Shown piece by piece: positions 1 to 12,367 of a stretch of 64,000 bases of DNA. Within the stretch, counting starts at the first letter, position 1, and each line of letters begins with the position of its first letter. Source of the DNA: Shewanella fidelis ATCC BAA-318 (GTDB taxonomy: Bacteria > Pseudomonadota > Gammaproteobacteria > Enterobacterales > Shewanellaceae); contig NZ_KI912458.1 in NCBI RefSeq assembly GCF_000518605.1, positions 62,001 to 126,000 of the forward strand. Reading direction: 5' to 3'. Under the pieces are notes generated by a model that had not been told where the DNA came from, did not search any database, and worked only from the letters and a program-made list of their open reading frames with translations. The position numbers and the translations under genes are program-made.

Positions 1-1857
1 ATCTGCTGCGCTGATAAAGCCGATTTCACGAGGAAGATCTGCTTTTAGTGGTTGCAGATAAAAATCCATCACATTTTGGTGCTCTTGCATCGCTGGTTGC
101 GTATGCATGGCAGTGACGCGATTTGCTGCAATGCCACGTTTACCCAGCGCCGCAAGTAATGCTTTGCACTGAGTTTCACAACCTGCAATTACACAGGTAT
201 CGCCTTGGATAATCGCGAGGTAAGCGTGGGGATAATCTTCTAGCAATGCCTCAATTGGCGCCGCGTCACTTCTAACCACAAAGCTGTTCCACTGGATCTC
301 AGCGTCGGCATCATCCAGTTGCCAAGCTTGTCTAACCGCGGTTAACTTGCCGGAAATAGCTGAAGTGAATAGCGGGTCGGTTTGGGTTTTGCTGATCAGT
401 GCATGGGGGTTTTGCCATACGCCAAGGCTTGCCCACATTGAGGCTTCACCCATAGAGTAACCTAACGCAAAATTAGGCTTAACATTAAACTCATCGGTTA
501 GTAGCTGAGTTAACAAGTAGCTGCTACCTACGCCAGCAATGGCTAAATCACCTAAGCTCATATTGGCGGCATGTTTAGCATCTAAGTGATAAATATGCTC
601 AGCTTGTAGCATCGACTTTAAATCGCCTTCACGCTCAAGTTTGGCGTAAAGAGCAGGGAAGTACTGATGCAACTCATTAAGCATATCGGCATATACCGTT
701 CCTACACCTGGATAGACAAATGCGAGACCCGCTTGGCTGTGGTCATTGCTATTGCCTAGTGGTGTAAGGGTTAAGTAACTGCCCGCCGGAGTTTTGTATT
801 GAATTAAACCTTTACTGGTTAAACTGGAGTCTGCTTGCTCAGCAAAAAGCGATGGCAATGCGTCGTTAAGCGCAGCTAACTCTTGTTTTGCCGCGCTCAC
901 AGAGCTTGCTTGAATGACGGCATGATAAGCGCTGCTATTATCGCTCTCGATGAGTTTGGCTGCATCAATTAAATTGTCTTGCATTATGCCAAGTAGCACT
1001 TTTTGCTGCTCTAAATAAAGCTCATCAGAACCTGTTATCTGTACGCTGTCTAATTGCTGTTTTAACAAAGTTATTGATGCTGCAATTTGTTGCTGATTAT
1101 TGCCCTGTAACACAAACATCAATCTTTGGCTGTTTAGCATCGACTTTGGTGCTAACAGACCTGAGCCTTGGGTGAGCACATAACTGGTTGTTTGTGGGCC
1201 ATTAATAAAGTTGATTGCGGCAACACGATTTTGATGAAATTCGCTAAACCAGTAATGGCTTTTAGCCTGTTTAGGGCCGAGCTCGACAGCTTTTCTTACA
1301 TGGGTGCGGCTAGCAAGCCGTTGAATAAGTGAATAGACCGCAGTGAACTGTTGTTTACTATTAAGCGCTTCAAAAGACTCATTCAGGCTGACATCGCTTA
1401 AGTTACGTTTAGCTTGGTTTAATGCTTGATCAAGGGCTTGATTTAGCGCGTGAGAGCCGGGCTGAAATGGCTGTTCGTTAACATCAACTTGGCTAACCTG
1501 TTGCATAGCAGCAAGCTGTGCATGAGGATGGATCCGCATTTGCGCCGCTTTTAAAGCAGGTAGCATTAACAAACCATGAGTCGCAGTAGCCAGCTTAACC
1601 ATGTAGCCATTGTTGATCGCTTCGGTCGCAGCGTTTAGCTGCGACTCAAAGTTATTGGTATCACTGTCATCAGAGATAGTGATACTCATCATATCAGCTG
1701 GCGCATCCGCTTTAAGCAGAGGGATTAGCTCTGGCTGCAGCGTTTGATAGTTGGCTAATACTGATGGCTCAACAGTGCTAAGATCAAATTGCGGCGTTGG
1801 CAGTAAAATCAGTGCGATGCGCAGCGGCATCGCACTAGCTTTAGGCGTTTGTTCCAC
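1..1857 (-). CDS. pfaB: PfaB, omega-3 PUFA synthase subunit (partial, C-terminus outside window)
   Basis: Acyltransferase-bearing subunit of the anaerobic polyketide-like PUFA (EPA) synthase; PfaB is associated with which final PUFA is made. The leftward frame is open to the window edge, giving 619 codons. The acyltransferase nucleophile motif GYSMGE is present, Ser about residue 468 (codon 454-456). I chose the GTG at 1855-1857: it shares one base with the pfaA stop (TAGTG) and has a GAGG ribosome site (1865-1868) seven bases upstream. The in-frame ATG at 1828-1830 lacks a ribosome site. The overlap implies translational coupling to pfaA. pfaC and pfaD are expected beyond the left edge. The family is certain; only the start codon is open. 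Confidence 0.95.
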   Translation of the reverse strand, partial: MEQTPKASAMPLRIALILLPTPQFDLSTVEPSVLANYQTLQPELIPLLKADAPADMMSITISDDSDTNNFESQLNAATEAINNGYMVKLATATHGLLMLPALKAAQMRIHPHAQLAAMQQVSQVDVNEQPFQPGSHALNQALDQALNQAKRNLSDVSLNESFEALNSKQQFTAVYSLIQRLASRTHVRKAVELGPKQAKSHYWFSEFHQNRVAAINFINGPQTTSYVLTQGSGLLAPKSMLNSQRLMFVLQGNNQQQIAASITLLKQQLDSVQITGSDELYLEQQKVLLGIMQDNLIDAAKLIESDNSSAYHAVIQASSVSAAKQELAALNDALPSLFAEQADSSLTSKGLIQYKTPAGSYLTLTPLGNSNDHSQAGLAFVYPGVGTVYADMLNELHQYFPALYAKLEREGDLKSMLQAEHIYHLDAKHAANMSLGDLAIAGVGSSYLLTQLLTDEFNVKPNFALGYSMGEASMWASLGVWQNPHALISKTQTDPLFTSAISGKLTAVRQAWQLDDADAEIQWNSFVVRSDAAPIEALLEDYPHAYLAIIQGDTCVIAGCETQCKALLAALGKRGIAANRVTAMHTQPAMQEHQNVMDFYLQPLKADLPREIGFISAAD

Positions 1858-4800
1858 TATTTAGCCTCACTATCAGTGATGAGCGCAGCAGGTAAAAATG
1901 CTGAGTTCAAACCTTTGCTAATAGTGACTTTAGCGGACTTAAACATGGCACTTAACTCACCGTTATCACGGTATAGCGCAACGTTTGCTTCGAGTGAGCG
2001 GCTGCTGTGTTTAATCACTTCAAGCTCAATAACGCCAGTTTCTCCAAATGCCATAGGTTGGTATGAGGTAAACTCAGCGATGCTTGATGGCAAACTTGCT
2101 GCGCCAGTTTTAAGGCGAGCCCACACTAGCATGGCTTGTAGCAGCAAATCTTCAGCAAATGGCTGACTACCGCCAACATGGGTTTGCGCTTTAAACTCAC
2201 CACAATCTGCTAGGTCAACTTTAGGCAGGACGACTTTGGCAATTAAGCCTTGATCATCGAAACGTGTTACAGAATCTATGCCTTGTAAGCGCGTTCCATG
2301 GAACAAGGTACCGTTGCTATAAAGCTCTTTAGCTGTAGTCATTGCCGTAGCGCTTAAATCAAACTGCTTGTTATGTTGCTTAATATCGGCATTATCACTG
2401 ACAAGTGTCGCCTTATATTGCGGACGGCCGTTACTGCTGATTAATGCTTGCAGTGTCGGCTGGTTTGCATCAACTGGCGTTAACTCAAGGGTTAATTCTT
2501 GTGGCGCATCAGTCTCGAATACAATGCCTTTTAATAGCTTGTAATCAAGTACCTTAACTTTAGCGCCAAGCATGTTGCTTGCAACTTCACGCATCCAGTC
2601 GATGGCGCATACCGTTGGCAACACACAGTTACCGCCAATGCGGTGATCTTCAATGAAGACCATCGAACTAGGGGTTAATGTGCGCGTTGCGGTTACCGCT
2701 TGCAAAGGTAAATTTTGTGCACCAGCACGCGGATGCGATGCCGTTAGCACCTCACCCGCATTAAGCTTTTTTACAGAAGCAGTCTCAGTTGTTTTGGTAT
2801 CGCTACCGCCTTGCATTGACGTACCAATCAGCAGCTGAACGCCAGTTTCAGCTAATAGCTGGGTGGCAAATAACTCTGCGCCCGCTTTGAGTGGAATAAC
2901 GTATACACCGCGCTCAGTAAACATCTTTTTAAGTGCAGGGTTTACCATACCGCCGTCCCAAGGCCCCCAGTTAAAGCTCATGACTTTAGCTTGTGGGTTG
3001 CGAGCAGTGAACTGCAATGCTGCCTTGTTAAGAATGTCATTCGACATCGCGTAGTCGCTTTGACCTGTGTTGCCGTAGAAACCTGCAGCAGATGAGAACA
3101 TAGCAAGTAACTTAAGCTTACTTGGCTCTAGCGCTGCTAGTAATGCTTTTAGGCCGTTAACTTTAGTACCGTAAACACGTGCAAGTTCTGCAAGGGTTTT
3201 ATCTTGAATATGCTTATCGGCTAACACGCCTGCACCGTGAATAAGACCGGTGATCTCATTCGAGCGACCATTAAGTGCCGCTTTGATTGCTGCGCTATCG
3301 GTCACATCCATGCTGACATATTCAGCTGTAGCGCCAACCTCGCTAAAGGCGGCTAAGGCAGCGTTGATTTCAATGCTACTTTGCACCGGCCACACCGCGG
3401 CCTCTACTTGTTTTGGCGTTGGCTTTTGACCGCTTGCGATAATATGCGCGATTGCCGCAGATTTTAGCTCGCTAGTTTGTTTACCTTCAGCCCAGCTTGG
3501 TAATGCTTGTAACTCGCTGCGACCCGCTAAGATAAAGTGTGATTGGCTGCGAGCCGCTAAAGCTAGCGCACATTCAAATGTCACCCCTTTTGCGCCACCG
3601 GTCACCAGTATTTTATCTGAGCTATTTAACTCGGCTGGTGCGGTTTTATTAGCGGCCTCTCCAGCAACCAGTGTTACGCGGTTAACTTGGCCTTCAATTA
3701 AGCTCAAGCCGACTTCAGGTAGCTGAGCTTGGCTATCAAATAGTTCACAGGTGATGGCATCAGCAAGATGGCTTGCATCAACATCTGTGGCAATATCTAG
3801 CGCGCGACAGAACACCTGTGGCCATTCATGGCTTAAGGTTTTAGTTAAGCCTGCCAGTGCTGCTTGGTTAAGTTCTGCTCCTTGTAGAGCATCCGTATTT
3901 AAGTAGCCAAAGCCACCGTCAATACGGCTTACTGTTACAAAACAGCGGCGCGCGTCTGCTGCTGCAACTAATTTTGGTTGCAACAGTTTTGCCCATAAGA
4001 ACGCATTGCTCACGTGTGTAAAGCTTTGCGGATCTAGGTTGACTGCTGTTTGCTCGGCAGTATTAGCTTCTGGTTGCAGGTGGATAAAGCCAGCAATTTT
4101 GCCAACCTGAGCTTCAATTTGTGCGATAACCGCAGTAATACTAGTTTCAAGCTCAGACTCTTTGTTTGAGGCAAGCTCAAAGCTGGCAACGTCACTTGAA
4201 AGTGGCGATTGAGGCTGACCTTTCGGTAAACGCACAACGGCAACTTTAAGACCTTGTTTAATTAGTTTCTCAGCTAAAACACCTGCGTTGTGACCATCAT
4301 CGTTGATCACAACACTTGCGTCTGCGGCGAAACAATTTTCTAGCTTGTCCGCCGCATTAAGCTTTTTTAGCGCCACCTCGCTATGAGGAGGAAGCTCCAC
4401 TCTTGCCTCTGCCGAGATAGCAGCTGGCTTTGCAGCATTTGCTGCACTTGTATTAGCAGCGCCGTCAGCTGTATTTGTTGACAGCTTAGAGCCTTCAGCC
4501 AGTTGAGAGCCTTCAGCCAGTTGAGAGCCTTCAGCCAGCTTAGAGTTCATGTACGCCACGATCTCGCCAAGAGTGCGACACTCAGCTAGATCTTCAGGGT
4601 TAAGCTCAGGCAAGCCCGGTAGCTCATCTTGAACTGTGCCAAGAATTTCTACACGCTTGATAGAGTCGATGCCTAAGTCGGCTTCCATATCCATGCCTAG
4701 CTCTAGCATTTCAGTTGGGTAGCCTGTTTTTTCTGCGACTACAGACATCATGGTTGCTTGTACCTTCTCTGTGCTTAGACCATTTAAAGCTGGTGCAATA

Positions 4801-7800
4801 GTCGCAGATGAAAGCGCAGAGCCTTCAGCGGCACTTGTAGACAGTTTAGAGCCGTCAGCGAGTTTAGAGTTCATGTACGCCACGATCTCGCCAAGAGTGC
4901 GACACTCAGCTAGATCTTCAGGGTTAAGCTCAGGCAAGCCCGGTAGCTCATCTTGTACTGTGCCAAGAATTTCAACGCGCTTGATAGAGTCGATGCCTAA
5001 GTCGGCTTCCATATCCATGCCTAGTTCTAGCATTTCTGTTGGGTAGCCGGTTTTGTCAGCAACCACAGACATCATGGTTGCTTGTACTTTCTCTGTGCTT
5101 AGACCATTTACAGCTGGTGCAATCGTCGCAGATGAAAGTGCAGAGCCTTCAGCGGCACTTGTAGACAGTTTAGACCCGTCAGCCAGTTTAGAATTCATGT
5201 ACGCCACGATTTCGCCAAGAGTGCGACACTCAGCTAGATCTTCAGGGTTAAGCTCAGGTAAGCCCGGTAGCTCATCTTGAACTGTGCCTAGAATTTCAAC
5301 GCGCTTGATAGAGTCGATGCCTAAGTCGGCTTCCATATCCATGCCTAGTTCTAGCATTTCTGTTGGGTAGCCGGTTTTGTCAGCAACCACAGACATCATA
5401 GTGCTTTGCACTTTCTGTGCAGAGAGGCCATTCGCGACTGGAGTCGGAGCAGCTTGAGGCGCCGCAGCGGCACTTGTATTAGCAGAGCCTTCAGCGGCAC
5501 TTGTAGATAGCTTAGAGTTCATGTACGCCACGATTTCACCAAGGGTACGACACTCGGCTAGATCTTCAGGGTTAAGCTCAGGTAAGCCCGGTAGCTCATC
5601 TTGAACTGTGCCAAGAATTTCTACGCGCTTGATAGAGTCGATGCCTAAGTCGGCTTCCATATCCATTTCAAGCTCTAGCATTTCCGTTGGGTAGCCAGTC
5701 TTTTCGGCAACCACTGACATCATGGTCTTTTGAACTTTCTCCGCAGAGAGGCTATTCGTGACAGGTGTCGCAGCAGCTTGAGGCGCCGCAGCCGCACTTG
5801 TATTAGCAGAGCCATCAGCGAGTTTAGAATTCATGTACGTCACGATTTCGCCAAGGGTGCGACACTCAGCTAAATCCTCAGGGCTAAGTTCAGGTAGGCC
5901 CGGTAGCTCATCTTGTACTGTGCCAAGAATTTCAACACGCTTGATAGAGTCGATGCCTAAGTCGGCTTCCATGTCCATTTCAAGCTCTAGCATTTCCGTT
6001 GGGTAGCCAGTCTTTTCTGCAACCACTGACATCATAGTAGCCTGTACCTTGTCAGCGCTAATATTAACAGCCGCCGCGGCGCTATCACTCATGGTCGCTG
6101 CAGATGCTGATGAAAGCGTTGCGCCTTCAGCGACACTTGTAGAAAGCTCAGAGCCGTCAGCCAGTTTAGAGTTCATGTACGCCACGATTTCGCCAAGGGT
6201 GCGACACTCAGCTAAATCTTCTGGACTCAGTTCAGGTAGACCCGGTAACTCATCTTGTACTGTGCCAAGAATTTCTACGCGCTTGATAGAGTCGATGCCT
6301 AAGTCGGCTTCCATATCCATTTCAAGCTCTAGCATTTCTGTTGGGTAGCCAGTCTTTTCGGCAACCACTTCAAGCATGGTGGCTTGAACCTTTGCAGCGC
6401 TCAAGGCTGAATCTGAGCTAATGTCGACAACTGGGGATGCTGCGCTTGCATGAGTGGGTTCAATAGCAGCTTGAGCAGGGGCGGCTTGACTGACAACTTG
6501 TGTTGCTGGTGCATTTACCACAGGAGCTGGTTGTACAGCTACTGTCTGTGTCGGTGCCGTTACTGGTGCAGATTGTGATTGCGGAGCTTGAGTTGACTGC
6601 ACTGGCGCATTGTTAACTGGCGCTACAATCGCAGGTTGAGCTGCAACTTGGCTTTGAATCGCTTGATTGTGAATAACTGCAGCGTAAGTTGCTTGGCCGC
6701 CATTAAGCAGGTTTAATGCCGCAATATTGCTGCCAGCTTGCATCTCAAGGAACTGAGTGTGGCTTTGTAATGTTTGTGCCTGTAACTGGTGGAACTGCTC
6801 CATTGAGCGCTGTAGGCTATCAGGAATAGCAATACCAGAACTAATTAACTTAGCGTGCTCAGTCATTAATGCTGTGAAAGTCTCGCCATATTGTTGTGGG
6901 ATCGCTAAGAACTGCTGATGTAACTGCGCCGTTTGTTGCTGCGCTGCAAAGAAATGAGTTAATGCATCACCGCTAACGCTATGAGTTGCTGGCTTACTAT
7001 TTTTAGACACGATTTGGCTCTCTATACGGGGATCGACAACAGAGGTGGCTTGAGTTGTATTAGTCGGGGCTGCAACCTCTACAACCTTTTCGACTTCAAC
7101 CACTTTCTCTACGATTTTTTCGACTTCAACAAGTTTTTCAACTTCGACCACTTTTTCTTCAACTACTCGCTCAACTTGTGAGGTTACAGTGCCAGTTTCT
7201 AAAGACTTGGCCATTTTTGCACGAGTCGCTTTGCTGATATGGTTTGCAGCATTCAGTGAAATACTCATAGGAGACTTCTTCGCCGGTGCGGCAATATCAG
7301 CTTGATATGGGTCAATTTCACTTAGCACTATGCCTGATACGGCCAGTTGCATTGCCGCTTGCTTAAGCTGCAGATCACTATCGCCCTTAGGGTTTGGGTT
7401 GATAGAGATGGTGCATACTTCTTGTTCGGTATTGGCTAGAGTACCTTGAACTAACTTTTGTAAGATGTTCTTTGGTCCAAACTCAACAAATACGCGGGCA
7501 CCGTCGTTGTACATGGCTTCAAGCTGGCTAGTGAAGCGTACTGATTGAAGCATATGTTTCTTAAACGAGGCTTTAATCTTTGCGGCTGTGGTTTCATAGA
7601 GCCCGCCAGTTGCATTTGAATAAAGGGCACGGCTGGCTTTACTAAACTTGGCTGCATCAATCGCTTTAGCAAATGGTGCTTGGGCATGACCAACCAATTC
7701 GGTATGGAATGCACCTGATACCGGCAGGCTTATTGCCTTATAACCAAGCTCACTAAGTGCTTTAGCCGCATCAGCGCTAGTTGCTGTTGGACCTGCGATT

Positions 7801-10160
7801 ACCGATTGCGTTGGCGCGTTATAGTTAGCGACTTTTACACCATCAAATTTAGCGATAGTGGCTTCAACGGTTTCAAGATCAGCAGCACTCTTGGTGATGA
7901 TTGCATACATGGCACCTGCATCAGCTTCAACGCCGTCTTTGGCTTCAGCTTTAGTCGCCATGGCATCGCCACGGGCAAAGGCCAGCTTATAGTAATCATC
8001 AGAGCTGATAACACCTGCAGCGCACAGTGCGCTTAATTCACCAAAGCTATGACCCGCTACCATATCGGCATTAAAACCTGCAGCGCTGAATAAGGCGTAT
8101 TGACCCATTGAAATTGCGCCGATGGCACTTTGGGCATTGGCGGTATTGGTCAGAATCGCTTCTTGGGCTTTTAAGTCATCCTTATTAAATACTGGCTTTG
8201 GATACAGAGTTTGAGAAAGTGGTGTCTTATCATTTGCGGCAAAAACTTTGTCAGCAGATACAAATTGCTGACGCATCTCAGGGTAGTAACAAGCCAGCTC
8301 GCGGCCCATATTGAGGTATTGTGAACCTTGTCCTGCAAACAGTGCGGCAACTTTTCCTTCAATTGCTGCGGCGCGGTAGCTAGTGCCACCAGGTAGCTGC
8401 CAAGTGTGATCGTCACTGCTCGCGAGTTTAGCAAGCGCTTGTTTAATTAGGCCTACTAACTCTTCAGCGGTATTTGCAACTAAACCGATACGTGGCGCAT
8501 TTTTATCAAGCTCACGCATACCATAGTTTGCTGCTGCATCTTTGAGAATAAACTCGTCTTGGTTTGCAGAGGCTGCTAGCGTGTTTAACTCGTTAACTAG
8601 CGATGCTTTATCGCTTGCGCTAACAAGGAAGCTTTGTGCGACTTGGCGTTGACGATATTTGGCTTTTTCGCTGTCATCGCGACTGTGTTCTTGCTTGTAC
8701 TCTTCAAGTACAAAGTGGAAGTTGGTGCCACCAAAACCAAATGAGCTAATACCAGCGCGGCGTGGCGTACCATCAACACGTGGCAGCCATGGGCGGGTTT
8801 CAGTGTTTAAGTAAAACGGTGAGTTTTCGATATCAAGCTTAGGGCTTGGCTGACTGACGTTAATGGTTGGCGGCAGTACTTTGTGATGCAAAGCAAGAGC
8901 TGCTTTAATCAAGCCTGCGGTACCTGCAGTTGACTTAGTATGGCCAATTTGCGATTTAACTGAGCCTAGTGCAATGTGCTGCTTGGTATCGTTGCCATCA
9001 GCAAACACAGAGCAAAGTCCGGCAAATTCTGCTGCGTCACCGGCTGCTGTGCCTGTGCCGTGAGCTTCAATCAGACCTAAAGTATGCGGCGCAAAACCGG
9101 CGTCATCATACGCGCGGTTAAGTGCTTTGGCTTGGCCCGACGGACGGGGAGCGTAGATAGATTTAAACTTACCGTCAGATGAGGCACCAATACCTTTAAT
9201 AACTGAGTAAATTCGGTCACCATCTCGCTCGGCATCTTCTAGGCGTTTTAGCGCCACCATACCTATGCCTTCACCGATCATCATGCCTTTTGAATCGATA
9301 TCAAATGGTTGAATGGTTTCGTTAGTCGTAAAGGCAGGCGTTTTTGAAAAGCTCATATACATAGATGGTGAGTTATCGGTACATACACCACCTGTGATCA
9401 TCATTTCAGAGCGACCTTCAGTCAGCTCAGTAAGCGCCATGCGCATCGCAGCCAATGAGCCGGCACATGCGGCATCAACTACACAGTTCATACCACCAAA
9501 GTCAAAACGGTTAGCGATTCGGCCAGCAATAACATTGCCTAAAGAGCCCGGGAATGAGTTTTCCTCCCAGTGCACGTATTGGTCTTGGAACTTTTTGATC
9601 AGCATTTCGCTGTCAGTGTCACTTATACCACTGTTTGCGAATACTTTTTTCAATACTGGGTATTGCAAACGTGCTGTTAGGCTGTGGCTAATTTTTTGAC
9701 CGCCACCAACACCTAAGGTGATACCAATTTTATCTCGGTCGTAATCTTCAGGTAGATTTGCGTCGGCTAACACTTCTTTAGCAACGATCAGCGATAACAG
9801 CTGTGATGAATCGGTAAGTTCTAAAATGTTTGGTGGTAGGCCAAACTCCATGGGATTGAAGTCAACTTCCGGTAGGAAGCCACCACGCTTACAGTAGCTT
9901 TTGTCTGCCGCAGTTTTATCGGCATCATAGTACTCTTCTGGTTGCCAGTGCGTCGATGGCAACTCAGTAATCGCATCGATTTTCTCACTGATTAAGTCCC
10001 AAAACTTATTTAGGTAGCGAGAGTTGGCAAAGATACTTGCCATGCCTACGATAGCGATAGGCATATCTTTAAGGCGCTTATTTAGGCGTGAATCAGCTTG
10101 TGAGTCTTGTGCTTGCTCAGTCGCTTTTGCTGATTTTGTAGGTTTAGAGGTCTGGCTCAT
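1857..10160 (-). CDS. pfaA: PfaA, multidomain omega-3 PUFA (EPA) synthase
   Basis: Iterative type I synthase subunit of 2767 residues that builds EPA from malonyl units. Domains in order: ketosynthase about 33-490 (Cys232 in DAACAGS, His367, His407); malonyl-CoA acyltransferase about 600-900 (Ser705 in GHSFGE, His819); a Val/Glu/Lys-rich linker about 995-1030; a Gln/Pro/Ala-rich linker; six ACPs with the LGIDSI motif (Ser1291, 1405, 1509, 1617, 1725, 1833); ketoreductase about 2180-2440 with TGGAKG at 2187 and Tyr2370 in YAMSN; and a C-terminal hot-dog dehydratase-like domain with an HxxxGxxxxP motif (His2506) and DxxxQ (Asp2671). About 300 residues between ACP6 and the Rossmann part probably form the structural half of the ketoreductase. 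The ATG overlaps the pfaR stop (TAATG), with GGAG seven bases upstream. PfaE must phosphopantetheinylate the ACPs. Confidence 0.98.
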   Translation of the reverse strand: MSQTSKPTKSAKATEQAQDSQADSRLNKRLKDMPIAIVGMASIFANSRYLNKFWDLISEKIDAITELPSTHWQPEEYYDADKTAADKSYCKRGGFLPEVDFNPMEFGLPPNILELTDSSQLLSLIVAKEVLADANLPEDYDRDKIGITLGVGGGQKISHSLTARLQYPVLKKVFANSGISDTDSEMLIKKFQDQYVHWEENSFPGSLGNVIAGRIANRFDFGGMNCVVDAACAGSLAAMRMALTELTEGRSEMMITGGVCTDNSPSMYMSFSKTPAFTTNETIQPFDIDSKGMMIGEGIGMVALKRLEDAERDGDRIYSVIKGIGASSDGKFKSIYAPRPSGQAKALNRAYDDAGFAPHTLGLIEAHGTGTAAGDAAEFAGLCSVFADGNDTKQHIALGSVKSQIGHTKSTAGTAGLIKAALALHHKVLPPTINVSQPSPKLDIENSPFYLNTETRPWLPRVDGTPRRAGISSFGFGGTNFHFVLEEYKQEHSRDDSEKAKYRQRQVAQSFLVSASDKASLVNELNTLAASANQDEFILKDAAANYGMRELDKNAPRIGLVANTAEELVGLIKQALAKLASSDDHTWQLPGGTSYRAAAIEGKVAALFAGQGSQYLNMGRELACYYPEMRQQFVSADKVFAANDKTPLSQTLYPKPVFNKDDLKAQEAILTNTANAQSAIGAISMGQYALFSAAGFNADMVAGHSFGELSALCAAGVISSDDYYKLAFARGDAMATKAEAKDGVEADAGAMYAIITKSAADLETVEATIAKFDGVKVANYNAPTQSVIAGPTATSADAAKALSELGYKAISLPVSGAFHTELVGHAQAPFAKAIDAAKFSKASRALYSNATGGLYETTAAKIKASFKKHMLQSVRFTSQLEAMYNDGARVFVEFGPKNILQKLVQGTLANTEQEVCTISINPNPKGDSDLQLKQAAMQLAVSGIVLSEIDPYQADIAAPAKKSPMSISLNAANHISKATRAKMAKSLETGTVTSQVERVVEEKVVEVEKLVEVEKIVEKVVEVEKVVEVAAPTNTTQATSVVDPRIESQIVSKNSKPATHSVSGDALTHFFAAQQQTAQLHQQFLAIPQQYGETFTALMTEHAKLISSGIAIPDSLQRSMEQFHQLQAQTLQSHTQFLEMQAGSNIAALNLLNGGQATYAAVIHNQAIQSQVAAQPAIVAPVNNAPVQSTQAPQSQSAPVTAPTQTVAVQPAPVVNAPATQVVSQAAPAQAAIEPTHASAASPVVDISSDSALSAAKVQATMLEVVAEKTGYPTEMLELEMDMEADLGIDSIKRVEILGTVQDELPGLPELSPEDLAECRTLGEIVAYMNSKLADGSELSTSVAEGATLSSASAATMSDSAAAAVNISADKVQATMMSVVAEKTGYPTEMLELEMDMEADLGIDSIKRVEILGTVQDELPGLPELSPEDLAECRTLGEIVTYMNSKLADGSANTSAAAAPQAAATPVTNSLSAEKVQKTMMSVVAEKTGYPTEMLELEMDMEADLGIDSIKRVEILGTVQDELPGLPELNPEDLAECRTLGEIVAYMNSKLSTSAAEGSANTSAAAAPQAAPTPVANGLSAQKVQSTMMSVVADKTGYPTEMLELGMDMEADLGIDSIKRVEILGTVQDELPGLPELNPEDLAECRTLGEIVAYMNSKLADGSKLSTSAAEGSALSSATIAPAVNGLSTEKVQATMMSVVADKTGYPTEMLELGMDMEADLGIDSIKRVEILGTVQDELPGLPELNPEDLAECRTLGEIVAYMNSKLADGSKLSTSAAEGSALSSATIAPALNGLSTEKVQATMMSVVAEKTGYPTEMLELGMDMEADLGIDSIKRVEILGTVQDELPGLPELNPEDLAECRTLGEIVAYMNSKLAEGSQLAEGSQLAEGSKLSTNTADGAANTSAANAAKPAAISAEARVELPPHSEVALKKLNAADKLENCFAADASVVINDDGHNAGVLAEKLIKQGLKVAVVRLPKGQPQSPLSSDVASFELASNKESELETSITAVIAQIEAQVGKIAGFIHLQPEANTAEQTAVNLDPQSFTHVSNAFLWAKLLQPKLVAAADARRCFVTVSRIDGGFGYLNTDALQGAELNQAALAGLTKTLSHEWPQVFCRALDIATDVDASHLADAITCELFDSQAQLPEVGLSLIEGQVNRVTLVAGEAANKTAPAELNSSDKILVTGGAKGVTFECALALAARSQSHFILAGRSELQALPSWAEGKQTSELKSAAIAHIIASGQKPTPKQVEAAVWPVQSSIEINAALAAFSEVGATAEYVSMDVTDSAAIKAALNGRSNEITGLIHGAGVLADKHIQDKTLAELARVYGTKVNGLKALLAALEPSKLKLLAMFSSAAGFYGNTGQSDYAMSNDILNKAALQFTARNPQAKVMSFNWGPWDGGMVNPALKKMFTERGVYVIPLKAGAELFATQLLAETGVQLLIGTSMQGGSDTKTTETASVKKLNAGEVLTASHPRAGAQNLPLQAVTATRTLTPSSMVFIEDHRIGGNCVLPTVCAIDWMREVASNMLGAKVKVLDYKLLKGIVFETDAPQELTLELTPVDANQPTLQALISSNGRPQYKATLVSDNADIKQHNKQFDLSATAMTTAKELYSNGTLFHGTRLQGIDSVTRFDDQGLIAKVVLPKVDLADCGEFKAQTHVGGSQPFAEDLLLQAMLVWARLKTGAASLPSSIAEFTSYQPMAFGETGVIELEVIKHSSRSLEANVALYRDNGELSAMFKSAKVTISKGLNSAFLPAALITDSEAK
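4490..4545 (-). repeat. Short 18-bp tandem repeat after the last ACP
   Basis: About three copies of an 18-bp unit encode the linker unit LAEGSQ/K in tandem just after ACP6. It lies in frame inside pfaA and looks like slippage-prone linker DNA. Copy number could vary between strains without breaking the reading frame. Confidence 0.85.
4549..6400 (-). repeat. Six tandem ACP-domain repeats inside pfaA
   Basis: Six near-identical DNA repeats encode the ACP array. The attachment-Ser codons lie at 6288-6290, 5946-5948, 5634-5636, 5310-5312, 4986-4988 and 4662-4664. Spacing in residues is 114, 104, 108, 108, 108. The first three copies carry LELEMDM and the last three LELGMDM before the DSI motif. 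The linkers ACP4-5 and ACP5-6 are almost identical, so the 324-bp unit seems recently duplicated or homogenised by gene conversion. Six ACPs is within the range known for PfaA proteins. Confidence 0.95.
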
Positions 10161-11026
10161 TATGAGTCTCCGCTGGGTGCCTGAGTGTCAGGCGTCTTGT
10201 TGATTGTTTCAGGCATTTCTTTAAAGGTGCGACGGTTTGGCGCCGCACCAGGAAAGCGCTGTAAAAAGGTGTGATAGTTACGTACCAGTAACTTTCGTAA
10301 ATGGAATGGCCCATGTTTGAGTACGTAGGCCATATATCGATTCGTGGCTTGTGTATTGCCATCTTGGTATATGTCGAGATAGATCCAATCGCTGTGTGGA
10401 TCTATTCCGAGCAAAATTGAGCTGGGCGCTTCTTCGGTTAATTTCGGTGGAATGGTAAGTGACACCACCTGCACCACATTGTCGCCGTCGTTGCTTGGTA
10501 GGGCTAAGGTTTGAGCCAGTGTTTCATAATGCAAGGTATAGGTTTGTACATCGCTACCTTGAGTGACTGGTAACTGGTTAAAGTAACGCATAGGCACACT
10601 TGGGCTCTCTATGTCGCTGACGCGGGATACGCCGTAACGCTTTAAACACCTTGCTAGTCCAGAACGCGAAACATTGGGATTAATAAATTTTTGTGTTGCC
10701 CTCAATAAGGTATCTAACGGCATCTTCAATTGGTAACGCAAACCAACCACCACATATTCTTGTAATGGCGTTAACGTGGTATTGAGGTGATGTGGGGTAT
10801 TGGGGCAGTTTTCGATAGAGTCGCGTTTGCGCCACTTACGGACGGTGGCTTCACTGATATTTAAAATCTTCGACAACTGACTCACGCTGAGATCCGACTC
10901 TTGTATAAATCGGCGCATCTCCGGCGTGGTTGTGGCATTGCGATGCCTAGCTTCATTTTCTATTTGCGTACACTTATTCGAAGAAATATTGGCTTCATTT
11001 AAGTGTTCGCTATTAATTTTTGCCAT
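10160..11026 (-). CDS. pfaR: PfaR, transcriptional regulator of the pfa operon (IS481-transposase-like)
   Basis: PfaR is known as a positive regulator of pfa genes in related deep-sea bacteria and always sits upstream of pfaA. The 288-residue protein has a helix-turn-helix at about 36-68 (ending TVRKWRKRD), then a second winged-helix-like block at about 83-135 (TLTPLQEY ... NPNVSRSGLARCLKR). Residues 160-258 resemble the RNase-H-like core of IS481 transposases (GID...W.Y..IY at 207-220). The positions of the catalytic acids appear changed: His166 at the first Asp, Arg249 in place of Asp of the TDNG motif. The chain stops before the catalytic Glu region. Its stop overlaps the pfaA start, so it is cotranscribed and translationally coupled. 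No clear ribosome site precedes the ATG. Function by family and position; transposase origin is my inference. Confidence 0.88.
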   Translation of the reverse strand: MAKINSEHLNEANISSNKCTQIENEARHRNATTTPEMRRFIQESDLSVSQLSKILNISEATVRKWRKRDSIENCPNTPHHLNTTLTPLQEYVVVGLRYQLKMPLDTLLRATQKFINPNVSRSGLARCLKRYGVSRVSDIESPSVPMRYFNQLPVTQGSDVQTYTLHYETLAQTLALPSNDGDNVVQVVSLTIPPKLTEEAPSSILLGIDPHSDWIYLDIYQDGNTQATNRYMAYVLKHGPFHLRKLLVRNYHTFLQRFPGAAPNRRTFKEMPETINKTPDTQAPSGDS

Positions 11027-11473
11027 CAGTTTAGCGGGTATCCGTTAATAATCTGTTGGGACTGAATAACGATATGAGTAAAGATGAACTTAGCGCTAAG
11101 CCACATTTTACCGTTATTTAGTCAATATTCTTTAGCTAATGGCAGAGCAGACTACCTGAGCTGATGTGGCAATACAATCACCTGGGACTGATTAATCACA
11201 GATACGACCAGATTGAGAGAACACTTGTGCGCTAAAGTGATATTTTATGTAGTAAAATCAAGGGTGAAATAAAAAGTGTGAGCTATGTTTGATAAATATA
11301 TATTTACACTTTGCTTACTCAAAGAGTGTTTGTAGGTAGCAAATGCTATTTGTGCTGATAACATTTACTAGTGGCAGCGTTGGTCTAATAATAACTTTCT
11401 TTAGTTAGGTTGCTGTTTTTTCAAAGTAAACAAGTCACAATAGTGACAAGACCAGTTTGTGATAGAGGATCTC
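11027..11473. promoter_or_regulatory. Divergent control region between pfaR and pfaE
   Basis: This AT-rich region of about 450 bp must hold the promoters for the leftward pfaR-pfaA-pfaB operon and for rightward pfaE. It contains a perfect 12-bp palindrome CTTAGCGCTAAG at 11089-11100, about 65 bp upstream of pfaR, a plausible regulator site. No promoter hexamers are convincing enough to place a transcription start. No other gene is visible. Confidence 0.55.
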
Positions 11474-12367
11474 TTGTCAGAATCTTATTCGATCAACCTT
11501 TACTTTTGTCCGTTAACCATAAAAGCGTGTGATAGCCAAGCCTCTGAATTGTTGAAGTCTTGGTTGCCTGAAGACGAATTGATCAAGGTTGACCGTTACA
11601 TTAAACAAGAGGCTAAAGCCCAAGGACTAATGGTGAGGGGCTATCTACGTGGCATACTTTCGCGGCACAGTGATTTATTGCCCAATGAGTGGTGTTTTGA
11701 ATATGGTGATAAAGGGAAGCCGAGATTAACAGATCCCCAATTTGAGCAAACTGGTATTCATTTTAATTTGAGTCACAGTGGTGCTTGGCTATTGGTTGGC
11801 ATCTGTGTACCTAAAACGGCCAATAATGAACTCGATGCTGTCGAATTTGGCGTCGACATAGAGCGATGTCGCAGCACGACTAACATTCACTCGATATTGA
11901 GTCATTACTTTTCTGAACCTGAAAAAAGAGCCTTGTTAGCGTTACCAGAGGCATTACAGCGAGATCGTTTTTTTGATTTATGGGCGCTTAAGGAATCTTA
12001 TATAAAAGCCAAAGGGCTTGGTCTTGCTTTATCACTTAAGTCTTTTGCTTTTGATTTTTCAACGGCAGTTAAAAGTAGCTTGCCGCTGCAGCTTGGCCAA
12101 AGTGATAGTCCACAAGCAGTTATTAAGCCGGTCGGTATAGATCTTAATAGTCAGATACAGCTAAATTTATTAAATGATAACCAGATAGATGAGCCAGTGC
12201 TTGGGCAAATATCAGAAGACGGCATAAGCGCTGCTAAAAACTGGCAGTGTGTGCTTGGTCACTTAGATGAAGATTATCGCTTTGCGGTCAGTGTTGGCGG
12301 CTGTGATAAACTCAATTTAAACGCTAAGCAAATGAACTTAAATGAATTATTAACAGTTTACAAATGA
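11474..12367 (+). CDS. pfaE: PfaE, 4'-phosphopantetheinyl transferase for PUFA synthase
   Basis: Sfp-type transferase that moves phosphopantetheine from CoA to the Ser of the PfaA ACPs; essential for EPA synthesis. Motifs (from the TTG start): NLSHS about 98-102, GVDIE with the Mg ligands Asp128 and Glu130, and WALKESYIKAKG from Trp170, with Glu174 and Lys178. The frame is open from a GTG at 11459, but GTG lacks a ribosome site. TTG at 11474-11476 has AGAGGA at 11464-11469 with normal spacing, so a TTG start is preferred. The C-terminal third is divergent, as usual for this subfamily. It is divergent from pfaR and followed by a strong terminator, so it is a single-gene unit. Confidence 0.95.
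   Translation: MSESYSINLYFCPLTIKACDSQASELLKSWLPEDELIKVDRYIKQEAKAQGLMVRGYLRGILSRHSDLLPNEWCFEYGDKGKPRLTDPQFEQTGIHFNLSHSGAWLLVGICVPKTANNELDAVEFGVDIERCRSTTNIHSILSHYFSEPEKRALLALPEALQRDRFFDLWALKESYIKAKGLGLALSLKSFAFDFSTAVKSSLPLQLGQSDSPQAVIKPVGIDLNSQIQLNLLNDNQIDEPVLGQISEDGISAAKNWQCVLGHLDEDYRFAVSVGGCDKLNLNAKQMNLNELLTVYK

Follow-up and report, generated by a model that had tools for sequence, protein, structure and literature searches.

In Colwellia psychrerythraea, PfaR was modelled on MuA (4FCY) and proposed to be an inactive relative of a transposase that acts as a regulator (PMC4744452, 2016). TldR (PMC13418256) is likewise a transcription factor of bacteria that stems from a transposon protein, as we propose for PfaR. 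Here, we consider pfaR of Shewanella fidelis ATCC BAA-318, which lies at 10160..11026 on the reverse strand of a 64,000-nucleotide stretch of that genome (contig NZ_KI912458.1, positions 62,001 to 126,000; hereafter the window). The gene, recognised by its open reading frame, its match to an IS481 profile and its single copy in the genome, encodes 288 amino acids and directly precedes pfaA. Gene name and pfa cluster are as in Colwellia; the accessible part of the Colwellia paper contains no IS481 assignment, no mapping of the catalytic triad and no operator. Given that precedent, the general notion of a dead transposase serving as a regulator is not new. What appears new, set against that part of the paper, is the assignment to IS481, a corrected map of the active site, a conserved xNY signature and an operator that resembles the end of an insertion sequence (IS). 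No IS481-end operator for PfaR was recognisable in the literature searched, most subscription papers lying outside it, so we cannot be sure that the operator is new. TldR, for its part, reportedly originates from TnpB and, unlike PfaR, is said to be RNA-guided and no relative of the DDE transposases.

We consider it likely that PfaR is a domesticated IS481 transposase whose gene is preceded by the surviving half of its left end, and that by binding there it regulates pfaR and the genes from pfaA on. In this scheme, a transposase of the ISGlo3/ISKpn27 subgroup was domesticated in the common ancestor of all PfaR proteins and became the gene before pfaA. Its DNA-binding half, with tandem helix-turn-helix (HTH) domains, was kept, as was the DDE core's first half; the catalytic residues were lost, and so was the C-terminal part. 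PfaR would then most likely bind one site upstream of its gene, corresponding to the inner half of the left terminal repeat, and from there control pfaR and pfaA onward. The two genes presumably form one transcript, and the sign of the regulation is conjectural.

IS481 ancestry and the catalytic triad

The original prediction for this locus, made from the sequence, took PfaR to be a domesticated, catalytically dead transposase of the IS481 type. Profiles, trees, residue loss and constraint support this claim well; the prediction further made PfaR a putative activator, perhaps an oligomer. Residues 39-257 of PfaR align with positions 7-203 of the 284 in NCBIfam's IS481 profile NF033577 (E = 5.6e-21; 75.3 bits, curated cut-off 224), and Pfam returns HTH-type matches only, all under their cut-offs. 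With hhalign, a profile of 32 PfaR sequences aligns with 11 intact IS481 relatives over 221 columns (E = 2e-54), and the core aligns by itself when the HTH half is removed (E = 3e-12); each value comes from a single comparison. Both HTH domains, and the DDE core through its first half, are thus on the IS481 pattern, as had been predicted, and the motifs GID..W.Y..IY and PFHLRKLL, singled out in that prediction, match the IS481 core in the alignments. A tblastn search of plasmids with PfaR matched 1371 records. Among the 40 listed are IS481 transposases including those of ISGlo3 and ISKpn27, and the listed matches cover 80–86% of the query at 30–35% identity. In trees, PfaR forms one clade (support 100/99) near ISGlo3/ISKpn27-type elements. 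Profiles and phylogeny thus place the origin of PfaR in an IS481-family transposase of this subgroup.

What PfaR has in common with the subgroup is the tandem HTH, an HxNATTT-like N-terminus and the first half of the DDE core. Unlike IS481 elements, it has no DDE triad, its core ends after the TDNG site, there is no right end, and the gene is a single copy fixed before pfaA. Among the marks of a mobile element, PfaR shows the profile homology and lacks the triad, the full pair of terminal repeats, and several copies or transposition.

We mapped the triad in an alignment of 140 PfaR rows with the 11 intact relatives, in which D152, D213 and E262 are invariant (11/11). The window contributes one row, an order-wide sample 59 (the window's own genome included) and named contigs 80; some species are represented twice, and for one split gene the row holds its second half. 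Asp is found at neither Asp site in any of the 140 rows. The first site, Val188 in the window (10463-10465, reverse strand), carries V in 73 rows, E in 15, A in 11, S in 10, Y in 9, M in 7, N in 7, R in 4, K in 3 and L in 1. The second carries R in 89, K in 16, A in 13, G in 9, E in 7, S in 5 and N in 1, so that Glu occurs in 15 rows at the first site and 7 at the second. TDNG has become xNY (Arg249-Asn250-Tyr251 in the window; 10274-10282, reverse strand): Asn is kept, and Gly replaced by Tyr, in 140/140 rows. By this alignment, PfaR has lost its catalytic triad residues.

Two of the three triad positions had been read correctly at the outset, namely Arg249 at the second Asp and a chain that ends before the region of the catalytic Glu. 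No Glu can be aligned reliably there. The tail column that faces the third acid holds E in 34 rows and a gap in 34, and we do not read this Glu as kept, because the tail is unconserved. The third assignment, His166 at the first Asp, has to be given up. His166 sits in a PfaR-specific insert between the HTH domains and the core, in a column that holds N in 87 rows, H in 26, S in 21, and D, C and T in 2 each; the residue facing the first Asp (HVDV in intact relatives) is Val188. The alignment, hhalign and a structural match to integrase cores agree on this register.

Sequence constraint differs sharply along the chain. Median dN/dS (nonsynonymous to synonymous substitution rates) was computed for 15 Shewanella sequences (105 pairs, those with saturated or tiny dS being dropped). 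The two HTH domains (residues 28-138; 10613..10945, reverse strand), which align, are modelled by AlphaFold2 and form the stretch most like intact IS481 transposases, have a median of 0.02 (32 pairs). The insert or linker that holds His166 (residues 139-180; 10487..10612, reverse strand), mostly absent from intact IS481 proteins, has 0.03 (57 pairs). For the truncated DDE core (residues 181-258; 10253..10486, reverse strand), which is supported by alignment, hhalign and models, the value is 0.04 (79 pairs). The N-terminal extension reaches 0.33 (100 pairs) and the tail (residues 259-288; 10163..10252, reverse strand) 0.58 (84 pairs), with a predicted local distance difference test (pLDDT) score below 50 from residue 265. 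The low values for HTHs and core imply that the dead core is maintained rather than decaying, and PfaR is under selection as a host gene.

PfaR is also tightly linked to pfaA (1857..10160, reverse strand; TIGR02813 profile, 4270 bits). In the window, the stop codon of pfaR overlaps the start of pfaA as TAATG, an arrangement frequent among the loci. The order-wide sample of 394 genomes gave PfaR matches in 69; in 59 of these, PfaA comes next on the same strand at every PfaR locus (59/59). Of the remaining ten, one genome carries an intact IS481 in two copies and the others have other degenerate relatives, none adjoining pfaA. PfaA likewise comes next, on the same strand, in all 80 PfaR loci examined from named contigs (80 of 210 confirmed). 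A PfaR-PfaA fusion suspected in loci L030 and L049 was rejected, since a stop codon separates the frames.

A conserved block upstream of pfaR

The ends of the nearest intact IS481 elements read roughly TTGTCGGGTCCCGGATGATTCC. Upstream of pfaR lies a block, AGTCCCAGGTGATTGTAT (11172..11189, reverse strand), which we propose as the PfaR operator and a fossil left end on the grounds of conservation, motif search and comparison with IS ends. Its 13-bp core, GTCCCAGGTGATT (11176-11188, reverse strand), 150–162 bp upstream of the pfaR ATG, matches the inner part of the intact IS481 terminal repeat. The original prediction had reported no terminal inverted repeats. This holds for the right end, of which we find no relic after pfaR in 80 loci, matches there being no better than in shuffles; it does not hold for the left, in view of this left-end-like repeat. 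A left end with an inner GTCCCGGATGATT-like repeat is thus another feature in common with the subgroup; it is clear in ISGlo3, though not in the left end of ISKpn27.

The IS core occurs within two mismatches in 118/138 PfaR upstream regions, compared with 21/690 shuffles. The full distribution is 46, 30, 42, 11 and 9 regions with 0, 1, 2, 3 and 4 mismatches, against 1, 20, 189, 433 and 47 shuffles with 1, 2, 3, 4 and 5. This count carries some caveats: the core string was set after both PfaR and IS sites had been seen, the rows contain species duplicates, and L009 and the truncated L070 were left out. The block also emerges when IS sequences play no part. Among the 16-mers upstream of pfaR in the window, ranked by conservation over 25 other loci hand-picked for diversity, the operator block comes first, with a mean of 2.44 mismatches versus 5.71 (standard deviation 0.52) for all 16-mers. 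An expectation-maximisation (EM) motif search over the 26 loci, window included, places a block-type site in 26/26, on one strand in 26/26 and clearly in all but the weak Motilimonas locus, at a score of 291.9 versus 53.8, 58.4 and 58.2 for three shuffled sets.

We then compared this motif with a matrix built from five elements and their 10 IS ends, which had been found solely as self-inverted repeats, blind to the block. None of 10,000 column permutations matched as well. With 17 loci, from which Motilimonas and one weak Psychromonas locus were missing, and 17 ends that had been chosen with the core string, 2 of 20,000 were as good. Conversely, the window 18-mer closest to the IS-end matrix is the best-kept block. 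Scanned over whole upstream regions, the full 22-bp end matrix gives a small rise only (mean 3.71 versus 2.38), since the outer half with its TGTC has not been conserved and the signal sits in the inner core.

The site appears to be dedicated to pfaR. The window's own genome holds one exact site and two others at 3 mismatches, versus two matches for the reversed control. A strict degenerate pattern occurs in 32/388 genomes, of which 25 are PfaR genomes, each with a single occurrence just upstream of pfaR. Position and orientation can be compared with those in IS elements. The left core lies at -98 to -119 from the HxNATTT codon in 11/15 IS relatives (two of them, L183 and L190, truncated frames and another two, L059 and L060, copies of one element), while in the other four no core is recognised at 3 mismatches. 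The 16 compact PfaR rows (Psychromonas-type, Vibrio, Parashewanella) have the site at -87 to -116, in the same orientation as in the IS. Since transposases bind their own ends and PfaR keeps the DNA-binding half, we infer that the upstream block is probably a fossil left end kept as an operator.

Several observations weigh against this reading. The terminal TGT of the IS repeat is not kept at the PfaR site, and there is the missing right end. Spacing fits only in the compact loci; Shewanella loci have the site at -176 to -370 from the codon (-243 in the window). The Motilimonas site is weak, scoring 14.1 versus 19–30 elsewhere and showing 3–4 mismatches in three named species, and some Psychromonas-type loci are also at 3–4 mismatches. 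Only 25/59 PfaR genomes of the order-wide sample contain the strict pattern, and it occurs in 7 genomes without PfaR, a number close to the total of 5 for the reversed pattern. Two of those 7 have pfaA, far from the site; no PfaR, IS481 relative or PfaA is present at the 5 of these loci that were fetched. Finally, PfaA is present in 84/388 genomes, and 26 of the 84 (21 in two genera) have no PfaR match, which means that PfaR is not needed for the pfa system as such.

A second block of the same type, AGTCCCAACAGATTAT (11048..11063, reverse strand), lies about 22–37 bp upstream of the pfaR ATG. It is the next best kept distinct block, with counterparts in several Shewanella loci, and is weak alone; its score may owe part to matches to the first block. 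Upstream of pfaR in locus L033, an operator-like site about 140 bases before the HxNATTT codon has a near-identical partner at about 328 bases, in the opposite orientation.

A second IS481 lineage and alternative readings

Degenerate IS481 relatives of another kind are found, one per genome, at loci L061 and L063-L069, in all eight cases beside phosphotransferase system (PTS) and peptidase genes in two arrangements. Their neighbours encode a lactose/cellobiose-type PTS IIC component and proteins like beta-aspartyl-peptidase and leucyl-aminopeptidase. Within the family of genome G166, 14/149 genomes have the gene; in the short loci fetched from them, IIC adjoins it in 12/14 and the aminopeptidase in 2/14. 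The 12 IIC-adjacent loci share a block like TATAAATCTCATATGATTGGTTA, at most about 50 bases from the gene start. Compared with IS ends, it is equalled by 23 of 5,000 permutations over 26 columns and by 0 of 5,000 over a hand-chosen 18-column core. The block is absent from the more distant L257 and L258 and not clear in L061 and L063-L065, its spacing differs from that of intact IS elements, and it may equally be a promoter element. A blastn search of E. coli genomes gave no match to the gene. Farther up than the block, the 12 loci contain a CRP-like sequence, recognised by eye. Like PfaR, the PTS-linked protein (L061, L063-L069, L245-L258) is a degenerate, single-copy IS481 relative beside an operon, with a block resembling a terminal repeat upstream in 12 loci. 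It differs in keeping the C-terminal part of the core, in its pattern of losses and in the operon concerned. A further degenerate IS481-like protein, at L062 (5612-6451), has a very long branch and neither pfaA nor the PTS operon in the fetched stretch.

Did PfaR and the PTS-linked regulator arise from one already dead transposase, instead of from two domestications? The two are sisters in the full-length tree (support 90/92). However, the HTH-only tree does not join them, their branches are long, approximately unbiased (AU) tests reject none of three arrangements (p = 0.216, 0.535 and 0.403), and the two proteins have lost different parts of the core. We therefore hold a single domestication to have somewhat less than an even chance.

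It is also conceivable, if unlikely, that PfaR derives from IS481 while the upstream block is a later operator, or the site of another factor, whose likeness to an IS end is due to chance. The missing TGT terminus, the widely varying spacing and the modest length of the match (13–18 bp) would fit such an origin. Against this stand the permutation result for the blind matrix, the coincidence of the window's best IS-end match with its best-kept block, and the IS-like orientation and compact-locus spacing. In addition, the strict pattern occurs in only 2/26 PfaA genomes without PfaR, neither time near pfaA, and a similar block recurs in the PTS-linked lineage.

Structure prediction bears on whether PfaR could be an HTH regulator without kinship to IS481 whose C-terminal domain has some other fold, which we regard as very improbable. 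AlphaFold2 (32 sequences; mean pLDDT 72.4) models two HTHs (helices 35-67 and 87-130), a strand pair (151-164), a helix (167-173), three core strands and two further helices. The last helix stands where IS481 should carry the TDNG strand, and the core finds only weak matches among known folds (Z at most 4.2); both points count against an IS481 core. Unrelated porphobilinogen deaminases reach that VIA Z of 4.2 against the core-only model (mean pLDDT 71.1). On the other side, the core matches IS481 by profile when the HTHs are removed, and retroviral integrases, by our count, make up 28/50 listed Foldseek rows and 36/50 listed VIA rows for the core-only model, with weak scores and many near-identical HIV entries. 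For example, HIV-1 integrase 3ao1 aligns over 57 columns (Foldseek E = 0.70, probability 0.87, root-mean-square deviation (rmsd) 2.5), and 4ojr over 59 residues (VIA Z 3.8, rmsd 2.5). Typical rows pair integrase residues 56..139 with model residues 39..111, that is, PfaR about 180-252. If this pairing is ungapped near its start, the integrase catalytic Asp, which we take to be D64, falls near PfaR residue 188, as in the sequence alignment. Foldseek and VIA matches to the whole model are weak as well, with IstA first (E = 0.016) and MuA eighth; its HTH pair matches Pax-6 and Tc3 at Z 5.8 with an rmsd of 11–12. A sequence-profile search of solved structures with PfaR gave one weak match, stage III sporulation protein D (E = 0.034).

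That PfaR is a functionless IS remnant in decay, as its truncated chain and lost triad might suggest, is refuted by the constraint on HTHs and core and contradicted by its fixed place before pfaA and by the single split frame among 80 named-contig loci, and we give it practically no chance.

The locus and its regulation

PfaR of the window is 92–93% identical to PfaR of its relatives S. pneumatophori and S. sairae. The one split frame is that of Shewanella canadensis (L174, 6001-6863), a draft genome in which pfaR lies in two frames, possibly through a broken gene or an assembly error. In Vibrio sp. Of7-15 (L158), a Shewanella-like pfaR (about 65% identity) is found with pfaA and an operator core without mismatches, a pattern that suggests horizontal transfer of the unit together with its operator. 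On the other side of pfaR in the window, a divergent gene at 11459..12367 on the forward strand (GTG start according to the ORF finder) encodes a 4'-phosphopantetheinyl transferase (HetI-type profile, E = 4.4e-28, under the curated cut-off), which we take to be pfaE-like, a name given from general knowledge. Near its start, a short terminator-like hairpin with a T-rich tail lies at 11434-11447 on the reverse strand (one found, 0.3 expected).

More broadly, we find it rather probable that IS481 was domesticated in place as a unit, a dead transposase together with its own left end, so that the self-binding of a transposase became the control of an omega-3 operon. The same would have been repeated beside the PTS/peptidase operon, making IS481 a recurrent source of autoregulated transcription factors. 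Such a history would offer a testable route by which a transcription factor can originate along with its operator: the end next to the promoter is bound by the transposase from the start, so that an autoregulated switch would remain once catalysis is lost. The block is, moreover, a probable operator for the omega-3 synthase genes, and regulation of these genes is relevant to the production of eicosapentaenoic and docosahexaenoic acids (EPA/DHA). The same reading predicts that similar regulators built from dead IS481 transposases may be found elsewhere.

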